Below the pieces are notes generated by a model. The model did not search any database. It was not told the DNA's origin and saw only the letters and a list, made by a program, of their open reading frames with translations. Below are positions 1,947-48,587 of a stretch of 64,000 bases of DNA, one piece after another. Origin of the DNA: Oscillospiraceae bacterium (GTDB taxonomy: Bacteria > Bacillota > Clostridia > Oscillospirales > Ruminococcaceae); assembly GCA_018110825.1 (NCBI GenBank), contig JAGBCL010000014.1, forward strand, positions 1-64,000, given 5' to 3'. Made by a program: the position numbers and the translations under genes. Positions within the stretch are counted from its first letter, which is position 1. Each line of letters begins with the position of its first letter.

Positions 1947-4105
1947 TAATATCCAAAAACCTCATTCCAGAATGCTTCATCATCTTCATCAATGTATATT
2001 TCTTCAGGTACTTCATTATTATCAACATTAGTTGGTTCATCTTCTTCGGAGAAAAGATTTTTTAACAATTTCTTTTCAAAATTAACTTCAGTAACAGTTC
2101 CTTCTACAAAATCAACAGAGTACTCACCTATTGTTTCACTGTCATTTGTAGTGTTATTTACAGCTTCAAGAACTATCTTTTGCATTTCTGTTCCCTTAAT
2201 TGTAATTGAAACTGTTGATGCGTAAGCAAGATTGTCAATTGTTGTTGTTCCAATAATTGTACCATTTACATAACAATTAAAGGTAGCTTTGCCCTTTACA
2301 CCACTTGGTACACTAAATGTAATTACCTCTTCTGTTTCAGGCATAACACCAGTACTGAGAGTAAGAATAATCGTGGTATTAAGCTTAACAATATTATGCT
2401 GTCCTGATTCAGTAAGTGCAGGAATACTTTGTTCAATAACAGTTCCTTCTGGCTCGATAGAGTCAACTGTAATTGTTTGAATGGTAAACTTATCACCAAG
2501 AAGTGATTTTGCTTCATCAAATGTGTAGCCTACACACTGAGGAACTTTGATTTCCTGTTCCTCAGGACCACGGCTTACATACATTCTGATAGTTGATCCA
2601 TATGCAACTTTTTCGTTTCTTGCCGGATCTGTCATAATAACCTGATCTTTAGGAATTGTTTCATCAAATACGCTGGTAATTATTACATTAAATCCTTCAT
2701 TATCTCTGAGCATGGTCAAAGCTGTATTTGAATCAAGCTCATAAATATTAGGAATTGTAACCATACGAGGACCCTTGCTGACAACAACTTTTACTGTAGC
2801 GTTTCCAATAATATAATCTTTACCCTCGGATGGAGTCTGTTTAATTATAGCGCCTGCAGGAATATCATTTGAATATTCCTGAGTTTCAACCTCTAAATCA
2901 AAATAGTCTGCATAATATGTTTCTACTTCCTTGTAGCTATATTGAATAAGGTTTGGCATTTTTCCTATTTGTGTTTCAGTTTCATTTACGTTGATATATT
3001 TCATTATCATAATTGCAATGAATGCAACTACAATAATAATGATACCTGCTGCAATTGCAGTCAGTACAACAACAAAATATGAGGATTTAGATGGTTTATC
3101 ATCTTCTTCATAATCGTCATAATCGTCATAATCATTAACCCTGGAACGAGTATGCATTTTCTTTACATCACTGCCTTTTTCATTTCGTGCTTTTGATTCA
3201 GCAGCAGCTTTTGAAACCGCACTTGCATTGAAATACTGTGTTTTTTCAGATAAATACTTATATTCAAAAACTATGCTTGGATTTTTCTTGAATTCTTCAA
3301 TATCCTTAATCATTTCTGATGCAGACTGATAACGTTTTAAAGCTTCTTTCTGTATTGCTCTGATAACAATTTCTTCAAGACCTTCAGGAACAGCGTCGTT
3401 TACAGAACGAAGTGGTTTTGCTTCATTCTGCATATGCATTAAAGCAACTGAAACAGGGTTATCACCATCAAAAGGTTTTTCTCCGCAAAGCATTTCATAC
3501 ATCATTATACCAACAGAATAAATGTCGCTTTTTTCATCTGTTACATCGCCGCGGGCTTGTTCAGGACTTATATAATGTACACTTCCGATTGCTTTGTCAG
3601 AAATAGTTTTTCCTTCTTCTCTTGCAAAACGAGCAATACCAAAGTCCATGACTTTTATTGTGCCGTCAGAAAAAAGCATAATATTCTGAGGTTTTATATC
3701 ACGGTGTACTATTCCTCTATCATGAGCATGCTGCAATGCACGGAGTATCTGGATTATAAAATGAACACAGTCCTTCCATTTGATTACACCTTGCTGTTCC
3801 ATAAATTCTTTCAGAGTAATGCCGTCAATATATTCCATTACAATAAACTGGATTTTTTCATTGAAACCAACGTCAAAAATTTTGACGATGTTTGGATGCG
3901 AAAGAACGGCAATAGCTTTGGATTCATTTCGGAAACGTCTGACAAATTCTTCGTTATCAGCAAATTCTGTTTTGAGAATTTTTACAGCAACAGTTCTGTT
4001 TTCAAGAATATCTGTTGCTTTATAGACATCTGCCATGCCTCCGACACCAATTAGTTCGGTTATTTCATATCTTCCGTCAAGTTTTCTGCCAATGTTTTTA
4101 TCCAT
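1946..4105 (-). CDS. prkC: Membrane Ser/Thr protein kinase with PASTA repeats
   Basis: A PrkC/Stk1-type receptor kinase (719 aa). The cytosolic kinase domain (about residues 10-272) has the glycine loop GVGGMADVY, Lys42 in VAVK, HRDIKPQN with Asp136, and DFG at 154. A charged linker with a DDYDDYDDYEEDD stretch leads to one membrane helix (about 343-369). Three extracellular PASTA repeats (about 384-590), which in this family sense muropeptides, follow, then a C-terminal region of about 130 aa without a family I recognise. I chose ATG 4105 because the upstream GTG (4114) lies inside the GGAGTG ribosome binding site. The cognate PP2C phosphatase gene lies directly upstream. Confidence 0.93.
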   Translation of the reverse strand: MDKNIGRKLDGRYEITELIGVGGMADVYKATDILENRTVAVKILKTEFADNEEFVRRFRNESKAIAVLSHPNIVKIFDVGFNEKIQFIVMEYIDGITLKEFMEQQGVIKWKDCVHFIIQILRALQHAHDRGIVHRDIKPQNIMLFSDGTIKVMDFGIARFAREEGKTISDKAIGSVHYISPEQARGDVTDEKSDIYSVGIMMYEMLCGEKPFDGDNPVSVALMHMQNEAKPLRSVNDAVPEGLEEIVIRAIQKEALKRYQSASEMIKDIEEFKKNPSIVFEYKYLSEKTQYFNASAVSKAAAESKARNEKGSDVKKMHTRSRVNDYDDYDDYEEDDKPSKSSYFVVVLTAIAAGIIIIVVAFIAIMIMKYINVNETETQIGKMPNLIQYSYKEVETYYADYFDLEVETQEYSNDIPAGAIIKQTPSEGKDYIIGNATVKVVVSKGPRMVTIPNIYELDSNTALTMLRDNEGFNVIITSVFDETIPKDQVIMTDPARNEKVAYGSTIRMYVSRGPEEQEIKVPQCVGYTFDEAKSLLGDKFTIQTITVDSIEPEGTVIEQSIPALTESGQHNIVKLNTTIILTLSTGVMPETEEVITFSVPSGVKGKATFNCYVNGTIIGTTTIDNLAYASTVSITIKGTEMQKIVLEAVNNTTNDSETIGEYSVDFVEGTVTEVNFEKKLLKNLFSEEDEPTNVDNNEVPEEIYIDEDDEAFWNEVFGY

Positions 4106-4141
4106 TAAATTCACTCCTGTAAAATACGATCTATAGTAAAT

Positions 4142-4864
4142 TTATTTTATATATGCTACGGTAATATTATCGTTTCCACCGTTTTTTAAAGCAAGATTTA
4201 TTAATTCTTTCGGAATTTCATCAGGATTGTAATTCTTTACAATATTAAAAATATCTGATTCATCACAATAATTTGATAATCCATCCGTACATAATAATAC
4301 AGAACTATTTTCACTTAATTCAAATTCAAAATAATCCGGTTCTATGTTACTGGATACACCAACAGCTTTTGTAATATAATTACGCTGAGGGTGGTTTTTC
4401 AATTGTTCCTTAGTAATTTCTCCATTTTCATACATTCTCATTACAATAGTATGATCCTTAGATATTTGGCGTATCTCGTGGTTAATGATATATAGACGTG
4501 AATCTCCGACATTAATTGCATAAAGCTTATTATTTGAAATAAGAGCTACAACACATGTAGTACCCATGCCTACCATTTCATGGCTTGAAAGTGCCATGTC
4601 ATATATTACAGAATTAGCTGTTGTAACAGAAGAAATCAATAGATTTTTTATCGATTTGGTATCAAAATCAGAGCGGAAAACTTTTGTAATTCTGTCAAAA
4701 ATAATCTGTGAAGCTTTTTCACTGGCTTCACTGCCTGCATTTTGTCCACCCATACCATCACAAACAACTGCTAGTACTGTATTATCATCAATAACAGTAT
4801 TACAGACCCTGTCCTGATTTTCTTTTCTTGAAAGGCCTATATTTGTTTCAGAAGTTACTATCAT
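4142..4864 (-). CDS. prpC: PP2C-type Ser/Thr protein phosphatase (PrpC/Stp)
   Basis: This metal-dependent PPM-family phosphatase (240 aa) should reverse phosphorylation by the neighbouring PASTA kinase. Family motifs are visible in order: the N-terminal SRKENQDR, VCDGMGG with the metal-binding Asp, GMGTTCV, VGDSRLY, SKDHT, ITKAVG, LLCTDGLSN and NGGNDNITV. The open frame extends upstream to 4933 into rlmN, but ATG 4864 gives the usual MIVTSETN-like start and is preceded by GGAGTG at about 4870-4875, so I use it. The gap to rlmN is 16 bp. Confidence 0.93.
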   Translation of the reverse strand: MIVTSETNIGLSRKENQDRVCNTVIDDNTVLAVVCDGMGGQNAGSEASEKASQIIFDRITKVFRSDFDTKSIKNLLISSVTTANSVIYDMALSSHEMVGMGTTCVVALISNNKLYAINVGDSRLYIINHEIRQISKDHTIVMRMYENGEITKEQLKNHPQRNYITKAVGVSSNIEPDYFEFELSENSSVLLCTDGLSNYCDESDIFNIVKNYNPDEIPKELINLALKNGGNDNITVAYIK

Positions 4865-45206: not shown

Positions 45207-46346
<1,140 letters not shown>

Positions 46347-46354
46347 CTAACTTC

Positions 46355-47638
46355 TTATATTATAATCATTGAGTCGCCAAAGCTGAAAAATCTGTATTTT
46401 TCTTCAACAGCTTTTTTATAAGCATTCATAGTATTATCGTATCCCATAAATGCAGAAACAAGCATAATCAACGTGCTTTCAGGCAGGTGAAAGTTTGTGA
46501 TAAGTCCATCAAGCACCATGAATTCATATCCGGGATAAATGAAAATATCGGTATAGCCTTCAGATTCCTTGATTTCACCATTAAATGTTGCAACGCTTTC
46601 AAGTGTGCGGCAGGAAGTTGTGCCTACAGCAATAACACGTCCGCCGTTGGCTTTTGTTTGTTTGATAAGGTCAGCTGTTTCCTTTGGCATATAGTAATGC
46701 TCACTGTGCATTTTATGGTCAAGGACATTATCTTCTTTAACAGGACGGAATGTTCCGAGACCGACGTGGAGTGTTACATACGCAAGGTTTATTCCTTTAC
46801 ACTTTAATTCTTCAAGCATTTCTTTTGTGAAATGCAAGCCTGCTGTCGGAGCTGCCGAAGAACCTAATTCACGGGAATAAACCGTCTGATAACGTTCCTT
46901 ATCTTCAAGTTTTTCGGTAATGTATGGCGGGAGTGGCATTTGTCCAATATCCTCAAGTGCTGTAAAGAAGTTGCCTTCACACTCAAATTTGGCGATTCTA
47001 TTTCCGCCTTCAACTGTTTCGATGATTTCAGCTGTAAGTCTGCCGTCACCAAAAGAGAACTTTGCTCCCGGTTTTGCTTTTTTACCAGGACGGACAAGAA
47101 GTTCCCAGAGTTTGTCACCTTTTTGTTCGAGCAACAAGAACTCTACAACTGCACCAGTTCCCTCTTTTACTCCGAAAAGACGTGCAGGAAGAACACGGGA
47201 GTCATTCATTATCAACAAGTCACCTTCTTTAAGGTAATTGCATAAATTATAGAAATGGTTGTGCTCAATTTCGCCTGTTGTTCTGTTCACTTTGAGCAGA
47301 CGTGAGTGATTTCTTGGTTCAACAGGAGTTTGTGCAATCAGTTCTTCGGGTAAATCATAATAGAAATCTGAACGTTTCATAGTTGAAATGTCAAGCTGAG
47401 TGTTGCAGATTACATTTTCAGCATCACGAAGAACGGCAAGAATGGGTTTGCTCCACTCGCCTGCTGTACTTGAATTAACAAGAGTTACTTCAATTGTATC
47501 GTTAATTTCAGAAATACAATCGTTAAGCGCATCAGCATTATTTCCAAAATGTTCAGGAAAATCAAGCTGTTCAGAAATAAAAGAGTAAAATTTTTCTTTT
47601 GTATCGAGTGTGTTAAAGTCAAGGGTAAGTTTTATCAT
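46355..47638 (-). CDS. queA: Barstar domain fused to S-adenosylmethionine:tRNA ribosyltransferase-isomerase QueA
   Basis: A 427-aa fusion. Residues 1-86 form a barstar (barnase inhibitor) domain: [20 protein letters not shown] aligns with barstar LPEYYGENLDALWDCLT, with Asp36 and Asp40 at the places of barstar Asp35 and Asp39. Residues 87-427 (341 aa) are a full Que[49 protein letters not shown] and HYYMPKETA. QueA makes epoxyqueuosine from preQ1-tRNA. No stop or ribosome binding site lies at the internal ATG (47380), whereas AAGGAG precedes ATG 47638. It lies 11 bp after the barnase gene and 17 bp before tgt. Confidence 0.9.
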
Positions 47639-47649
47639 TGTATTGCTCC

Positions 47650-48288
47650 TTAATAAAGCTGTGTAAAGCTTTCATAATGGTCATCTGTATAGAAAATTAA
47701 GCCGTCATTTGAAAATACTATGCGTTCTCCGCCGCGGTAGCCGCCCTCATAGTTTACGTCACATTCTGTGTATTTACGTCCGTCAGCTTCGGGAAGCAGT
47801 CCTTCGTAATTGCCGAAATAGTCGCCGCCAATACTCATCTGGTTGGTAACATCCCAAAGGTTGCCCTTTTTATTATCCCAGCCGAGCTTCTGAGCTTCTT
47901 TTTTGGTGATGAAGTTTGAAGGAAGCGTGCCAAATGTATGAATATATTCAGCTACATCTTCGGGTGTGGTATATCTGCCATCTTTTTCTACGGACAGTTT
48001 TTCAACAGAACTTTCTGTTACTGTTTCTGTTTCCGGATATTCAGGAATTGAAGATTCTGAAGTTATTGTTTCAGATATTGTTTCAACAGTTGTTTCGGAT
48101 GTTTCTGATTGTTCTGTCATATCTTCATCCACATAATTTTCGACATTGTCATTATAATATTCCTCTGTTACAACTTCTTCTGACAGAATGTATTCCAGTG
48201 CTTCTTCACAGCCTGTAAATGTGCACAGAACAGTTGCAATCATTACTAAAATACATATAAGTTTGGTTTTTAAAGTTAATTTTTTCAT
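47650..48288 (-). CDS. Barnase-type ribonuclease, secreted lipoprotein
   Basis: A 212-aa extracellular RNase. The signal peptide ends in TFTGC (lipid-anchored Cys27). An acidic Ser/Thr/Glu linker runs to about 98, and a barnase domain occupies 100-212: [47 protein letters not shown], and [11 protein letters not shown]. The catalytic set is complete by alignment: Lys129 (barnase K27), Glu175 (E73), Arg185 (R83), Arg189 (R87) and His204 (H102). At the position of barnase Arg59, the guanine and barstar contact, there is Tyr161. It should cleave RNA outside the cell or after entering target cells. GGAAGG precedes the ATG. The inhibitor domain is in the next gene. Confidence 0.93.
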
Positions 48289-48326: not shown

Positions 48327-48355
48327 TTGACAAAGGTTTTTAGTTTGGCTATAAT
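48327..48355 (+). promoter_or_regulatory. consensus sigma-A promoter of the lysine-riboswitch operon
   Basis: A perfect TTGACA (48327-48332), 17 bp and TATAAT (48350-48355), directly ahead of the riboswitch. It is divergent from the barnase gene, whose start is 39 bp away on the other strand. Confidence 0.9.
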
Positions 48356-48363
48356 AATTATTG

Positions 48364-48535
48364 AACCGATAGAGGCGCAGTAAAAATGAGTATTGCCGCA
48401 AAGACAGCCAGGGTCGATTGTATGCGGTATTGAAAGGTGATACTGCCGAAGGAACTCGTTTGGCAAGCGGCTTCCTGATTGCATATTTAAGAAGTATGCA
48501 ATTGTCATCATTCGTATGGTGGAGTGCTATCGACA
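48364..48535 (+). ncRNA. Lysine riboswitch (L-box)
   Basis: The aptamer is recognised by P1 CGATAG (48367-48372) pairing with CTATCG (48527-48532), the GATAGAGGCGC core, GAAAGGTGATACTGCCGAAGGAA in the middle (in parts: GGTGATACTGCCGAAG), TTGGCAAGCGGCTTC and the closing GGTGGAGTGCTATC. These are the conserved positions of the lysine aptamer. It sits upstream of asd-dapA-dapB and should switch off transcription of diaminopimelate/lysine synthesis when lysine is high, by letting the terminator at 48588-48611 form. Confidence 0.94.
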
Positions 48536-48587
48536 TAAATTTATGTACAACATAAAAATGTCAGTATTTCTATTATATAGTATGATT

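Follow-up and report, generated by a model that had tools for sequence, protein, structure and literature searches.

Related systems and layout of the locus

The closest described relative of the locus reported here is the barnase-barstar pair of Bacillus (RNase N1/T1 family, PF01337), in which barstar is the intracellular inhibitor of an exported RNase. The present locus is like the Bacillus pair in the catalytic columns of the RNase and in both key Asp residues of barstar, but it differs in that the RNase is predicted to be a lipoprotein with an acidic linker, the inhibitor is the N-terminal domain of QueA and not a separate protein, and the R59 and W38 positions are replaced. Immunity genes are usually seen as small separate genes beside the toxin, and standalone barnase-barstar pairs of the same family have the barstar frame, in most cases about 90-115 aa long, close downstream of the barnase as is the case here, but theirs is unfused. 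Compared to QueA as described (TIGR00113, PRK00147), the protein of this locus matches over the full length above the equivalog cut-offs and is followed by tgt, but a barstar domain of 86 residues precedes it and its own start has almost no signal. In the part of PMC3482391 that was available, simple barnase-barstar pairs are treated as a possible incipient TI order and DxxxD is named for the Imm-Barstar of polymorphic toxins. The toxin-then-immunity gene order of those systems is the same here, whereas the fusion of the immunity domain to the following metabolic gene is not described there, and no mention of fused immunity was found in that part of the text. Delivery machinery like that of polymorphic toxins was not noticed here. 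No paper was found that treats barstar and QueA together in a search mostly outside the subscription journals, and nothing among the literature matches listed (titles and starts of abstracts) dealt with barstar fused to an enzyme.

The window, which is the whole stretch of 64,000 nucleotides that was analysed, carries on the minus strand, in the order of transcription between 45207 and 48288, the barnase lipoprotein, the barstar-QueA fusion and tgt. The features are as follows.

47650..48288, minus: barnase-type ribonuclease (PF00545), predicted lipoprotein, 212 aa (profile and structure-sequence matches)
within 47650..48288, minus: signal with Cys27, 82-residue acidic linker and catalytic domain (aa 112-211)
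47646..47651, minus: AAGGAG, ribosome binding site of the fusion (sequence; duplex energy -7.1 kcal/mol)
46355..47638, minus: barstar-QueA fusion, a single open frame of 427 aa and the sole QueA match in the genome
47381..47638, minus: barstar (barnase inhibitor) domain, aa 1-86 of the fusion (PF01337)
47507..47551, minus: barnase-binding helix region, fusion aa 30-44, including D36 and D40 (alignment)
47378..47380, minus: internal QueA Met codon, ATG, with hardly any ribosome binding signal
46358..47380, minus: QueA (S-adenosylmethionine:tRNA ribosyltransferase-isomerase), fusion aa 87-427 (profiles)
45207..46337, minus: tgt, tRNA-guanine transglycosylase, the next gene after the fusion (profiles)
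48362..48537, plus: lysine riboswitch (RF00168) ahead of a divergent asd-like gene, which is named from its reading frame without a profile match

The gap between the barnase stop codon (47652-47650) and the barstar ATG (47638) is 11 nt, and the AAGGAG (47651-47646) overlaps the barnase stop codon and is followed seven bases on by the barstar ATG. The initial annotation had read this stretch as an 86-residue barstar running into full-length QueA and then tgt, 11 nt behind the barnase, and the coordinates, the frame and the profiles all agree with that reading.

The barnase and its putative inhibitor

The barnase domain is complete, as had been claimed: PF00545 matched with 73.1 bits (cut-off 24) over aa 112-211 of 212, and solved barnases matched the window RNase at 4.5e-32. 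The lipoprotein signal and long acidic linker noted earlier were also found, the linker between the lipobox Cys and the RNase domain being 82 residues long with 30% D/E and 4% K/R. In 14 aligned sequences K129, E175, R185, R189 and H204 (window numbering) were invariant; in the alignment of the window protein to a solved barnase they correspond to the catalytic and binding residues K27, E73, R83, R87 and H102. The window protein is a putatively active RNase, and its signal would take it out to the cell surface as a lipoprotein. Pattern matching showed a lipobox in 21 of the 25 barnases examined; by eye, those of G255 and G014 are lipoprotein-like and those of G187 and G110 are not. In type II toxin-antitoxin modules both parts are cytosolic, the antitoxin is unstable and there is autoregulation; the export signal on the toxin argues against a module of this type. 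A second, weaker barnase-like domain lies 5' of the first in G110 (L162, about 4082-4375, minus), a genome with one barstar match.

The identity of the barstar part rests on the profile match, PF01337 giving 47.3 bits over aa 3-74 of the fusion (cut-off 23.4); a single-sequence search of solved structures with the fused part found barstars weakly, at E 0.02 only. D36 and D40 of the fusion align with barstar D35 and D39, the two key Asp of the binding helix, and both Asp of this DxxxD are present in 20 of 20 intact fusions. The W38 position of barstar is not conserved, no position in the alignment could be assigned to E76, and the barnase R59 position, a barstar contact, holds Tyr in the fusion clade, the window barnase included, and Arg in L113 and L165; because of these differences the barnase-barstar affinity may differ from that of the known pair. 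In the intact barstar parts dN/dS was 0.07-0.26 in 10 of 11 pairs, the eleventh being saturated. In 17 of the 19 barnase-bearing genomes PF01337 matches nothing but the fused barstar, the exceptions being G015, which has a second barnase and barstar on the same contig, and the window's own genome (G000), which has an orphan. The window barnase is the only barnase match in G000. With both Asp kept and with its joint loss with barnase, described below, the fused barstar is very probably a working immunity protein against the barnase. The orphan of G000 is a standalone barstar (L139, contig C100, about 1531-1734, minus) that is 31% identical to the fused one.

The QueA part and its translation start

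Queuosine_synth (PF02547) matched aa 90-426 of the fusion with 475 bits and the TIGR00113 equivalog matched with 460 bits (cut-off 267.45) over positions 2-345 of 345; the NCBIfam QueA models begin at aa 87 and therefore QueA is complete. A strong ribosome binding site at the barstar start and none visible at the internal ATG had been noted, and the predicted anti-SD energies in the window, -7.1 and -0.6 kcal/mol, respectively, are in line with this. In the 20 intact fusions the mean duplex energy was -7.5 kcal/mol at the barstar start compared to -2.5 at the internal QueA codon, and the barstar start paired more strongly in 18 of the 20 (Wilcoxon p 1.6e-4). Unfused QueA starts average -6.9 kcal/mol (n = 53 of 65 loci tried), which is significantly stronger than the internal codons (p 5.9e-9). 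In five of the 20 fusions the internal codon is not ATG, GTG or TTG but CTA (G017), CTT (G305 and G110) or CTG (G196 and G422), and CTG is a rare start codon at best. The two fusions that do not follow the general pattern are that of G422, where the internal CTG pairs better (-7.5 compared to -6.1 at the barstar start), and that of G418, where the internal and barstar sites are about equal (-4.3 and -4.1). There is one QueA match per genome in both genera described below, that of G017 being split over two contigs. Because the start signal is at the barstar, little of it is seen at the internal codon and this codon is CTN in 5 of 20, we conclude that the cells probably make QueA in no other form than the fusion.

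Spread of the fusion in two genera

Twenty-one genomes of the window's genus and 20 of a sister genus (g91) were surveyed, and QueA was matched in 17 and 16 of them, respectively. One match (G423) was left out since it has no N-terminus, and thus 32 of the 41 genomes were readable. When these relatives were searched for barstar-QueA fusions, as opposed to homologues that are always separate, the fused frame was found in 26 of the 32. The barstar part was intact and in frame with QueA in 20 genomes and fused but degenerate in six (G420, G346, G414, G419, G416 and G415). In two more (G011 and G008) a barstar remnant is cut by in-frame stops, and these were scored by hand as barstar lost; the remaining four (G005, G010, G383 and G410) have no barstar part and keep QueA. 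Homologues of the fusion at about 63-96% identity were found in other assemblies, recorded mostly as Oscillospiraceae, Ruminococcus and uncultured Clostridia, many of them from animal gut or rumen samples; these loci probably belong largely to the same species and were kept out of the genome counts.

On the QueA tree two pairs of unfused rows (L021/L022 and L023/L024) fall between the two genera. The fusion may have arisen once or twice; the similar junction without a linker speaks for one origin. A pre-fusion state, i.e., a separate barstar directly before queA, was found in none of 80 related QueA loci with very uneven upstream lengths, of which nine had barnase and barstar, six barstar alone and 65 neither. 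Likewise, there was no QueA hit in any of 30 loci chosen for their barstar (L113-L142; roughly 2-3 kb for each).

Barnase and intact barstar are mostly kept or lost together

A search of relatives for the upstream barnase had also been suggested. Barnase was present in 19 of the 20 genomes with both Asp, whereas the 12 others had none (Fisher 5.8e-8). Among the 28 genomes that have a barstar part or remnant, it was present in 19 of 20 in which this is intact and in 0 of 8 in which it is not (Fisher 2.9e-6); both tests treat related genomes as independent. On the QueA tree, which takes kinship into account, there were three well-supported contrasts, and barnase went the same way in 2.8 of the 3 on average and the opposite way in none (sign p 0.25). 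Seen from the other side, the barstar part is deleted, broken or absent in 12 of the 13 barnase-less genomes. Eight of these 12 genomes are at least 90% complete and four are 77-86% complete, and because of the latter a missed barnase is possible; in G011 the sequence upstream of QueA is only 243 nt long. The thirteenth (G422, 81% complete) has an intact barstar with no barnase in the 6.4 kb upstream or elsewhere in the genome. In G418 the fused barstar is intact and the barnase, on another contig, is interrupted by an in-frame stop (L193:200-1660, minus); this genome was counted as barnase present. In G255 the barnase is about 2.2 kb upstream of the fusion with other frames between.

Five barnase-less genomes have no binding helix, and this looks like one shared in-frame deletion. 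What is left is a leader of about 68 codons that stays open, with a dN/dS of 0.26-0.34 in nine of ten pairs (the tenth is saturated), which is above that of most intact barstar parts but below 1 (Fisher p <= 2.4e-3 in all ten pairs), and therefore the leader is probably still translated. In a neutral simulation from one sequence the leader frame was stop-free in 5-14% of the runs, which is a modest argument by itself. When aligned to the other fusions the leader would start at TTG, with a pairing of -4.9 to -5.5 in four of the five genomes; the true start is unsure because there are other in-frame starts upstream.

Barstar fusions to other proteins

Barstar was surveyed in 396 genomes of the family (95 matched) and in 394 of the order (96 matched), the two sets overlapping. 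Eighteen long barstar frames were checked and in seven of them (L163, L164, L165, L166, L176, L177 and L178) barstar is followed in frame by another protein. The other 11, together with L167 and L168, were rejected as an upstream open frame, tandem barstars, C-terminal barstars or a doubtful match. The partners are as follows.

G201: M32 carboxypeptidase (peptidase)
G064 and G401, one genus: radical SAM protein
G698: DUF6847 protein
G565: beta-helix protein
G187: protein without a Pfam match
G542: protein without a Pfam match, cut by the contig end

In all seven the barnase is directly upstream and barstar starts -4 to +12 nt from the barnase stop. There are at least seven such loci; the surveys gave further barstar frames of about 140-300 aa besides those checked, including four of 252-295 aa in a survey of the phylum. 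In that survey barstar was found in 20 of 398 genomes, and no barstar frame longer than 300 aa was found in these besides the window's own. Some partners still show good pairing at their own start (-11.3 in G565), and fusion-only synthesis is therefore less sure for them. We read this as recurrent capture of the downstream gene by barstar, and stop-loss fusion is apparently tolerated with several partners.

Origin and meaning of the fusion

The fusion and its spread, the start signals, the joint loss and the other partners are read directly from the sequences. A quite probable explanation of them is that this is a pair of an exported RNase and its immunity protein whose immunity gene absorbed the gene behind it. 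The barnase would be synthesised in the cytosol, from where it would reach the cell surface as a lipoprotein, and it would have to be held in check before export; the fused barstar domain would bind and block any barnase that folds in the cytosol. Barstar would be translated by translational coupling from the start 11 nt behind the barnase stop. The fusion probably arose by loss of the stop codon between barstar and queA, and with this stop codon gone QueA would be made only as the C-terminal part of the fusion, where it presumably works as a normal queuosine enzyme. In the QueA line the partner would later have lost its own start signal, by which the fusion became fixed. Once barnase is lost the binding helix would decay or be deleted in frame, and the rest of the barstar domain could stay as a leader because it carries the start of QueA.

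A wider reading, possible but rather doubtful, is that there is an order-wide, repeated route by which an inhibitor that acts on a surface RNase captures the 5' end of the gene behind it, tying the expression of that gene to the toxin operon and protecting the cassette from loss. Barstar-QueA would then be the widest success found, with a life cycle from working fusion to helix-less leader to shedding.

It is somewhat less likely still that selection itself joined the immunity to a useful gene, so that the cassette could not be deleted without losing QueA. The little or no start signal of QueA in most intact fusions, the leader kept in frame after barnase loss in six genomes and the recurrence of fusions to unrelated downstream proteins are all in keeping with this. 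However, stop-codon loss without selection gives an identical picture. QueA, which is not known to be essential, would be a weak hostage, and the four genomes with no barstar part and the two with a broken one all keep QueA, and therefore escape looks easy.

The initial annotation was right about a real fusion beside barnase and about the start signal at barstar, and the barstar part is kept intact almost only with barnase, but the link to queuosine is not supported. It had proposed that immunity follows queuosine synthesis; the enzymes joined to barnase-linked barstars in other genera have no known queuosine tie, and QueA stays, with or without a barstar remnant, where barnase is lost. An improbable explanation is that free and barnase-bound barstar alter the activity or stability of QueA differently and queuosine thereby reports RNase export. 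The join of barstar to QueA without a visible linker (alignment) is compatible with this, and in g91 (e.g. L156 and L191) the QueA/Tgt ratio of outgroup distances was 1.7-1.8 in two barnase-bearing fusions compared to 0.8-0.9 in two helix-less relatives. In the window's genus, however, the ratio does not separate the states, being 1.2-1.3 with the fusion and 1.28 without it (13 ingroup rows), and over the 24 rows with both genes there was no consistent signal in the relative speed of QueA. The dN/dS of QueA is equally low with barnase (0.02-0.08) and without it (0.01-0.05), and none of the partners in other genera is known to be linked to queuosine.

An artefact, i.e., a frameshift or missed stop, or synthesis of QueA mostly from the internal start is very improbable. 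A wrong frame and an assembly or sequencing slip are ruled out by the fused frame being found in 26 of 32 genomes and in other assemblies. The window does have ATG as its internal codon, and in G418 and G422 pairing at the internal site equals or exceeds that at the barstar site, but the internal signal is weak in most fusions and the codons other than ATG, GTG or TTG in 5 of 20 make internal initiation unlikely as the main route to QueA. Least probable of all is the other proposal of the initial annotation, that the barnase cuts tRNAs which the QueA modification protects or marks, for which there is only the proximity to queA and tgt and a QueH gene that makes the queuosine pathway plausible in the window's genome, and against which stand the predicted export of the barnase and the other barnase-linked barstars that stand alone or carry, in other genera, partners with no known queuosine tie.

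On the preferred reading, that of an immunity gene that absorbed its neighbour, a conserved tRNA enzyme here includes, as one of its domains, what is probably the inhibitor of an RNase that could kill the cell, and in other genera several unrelated proteins have been joined to barstar in this way. The working, helix-less, broken and absent states form a natural series for asking how a toxin cassette gets bound to housekeeping genes, and an immunity protein can be hidden under a name like 'QueA' or 'carboxypeptidase'.

Transcription context

No clear promoter of the barnase operon was seen in the promoter scan (15 sites observed compared to 9.5 expected), which on the minus strand gave a 10-of-12 site at 48600-48572. 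The region 5' of barnase is antisense to the lysine riboswitch, as a leader transcript of the barnase operon would be. An exact TTGACA-17-TATAAT match lies directly 5' of the lysine riboswitch of the asd-like gene (48327-48537, plus strand).
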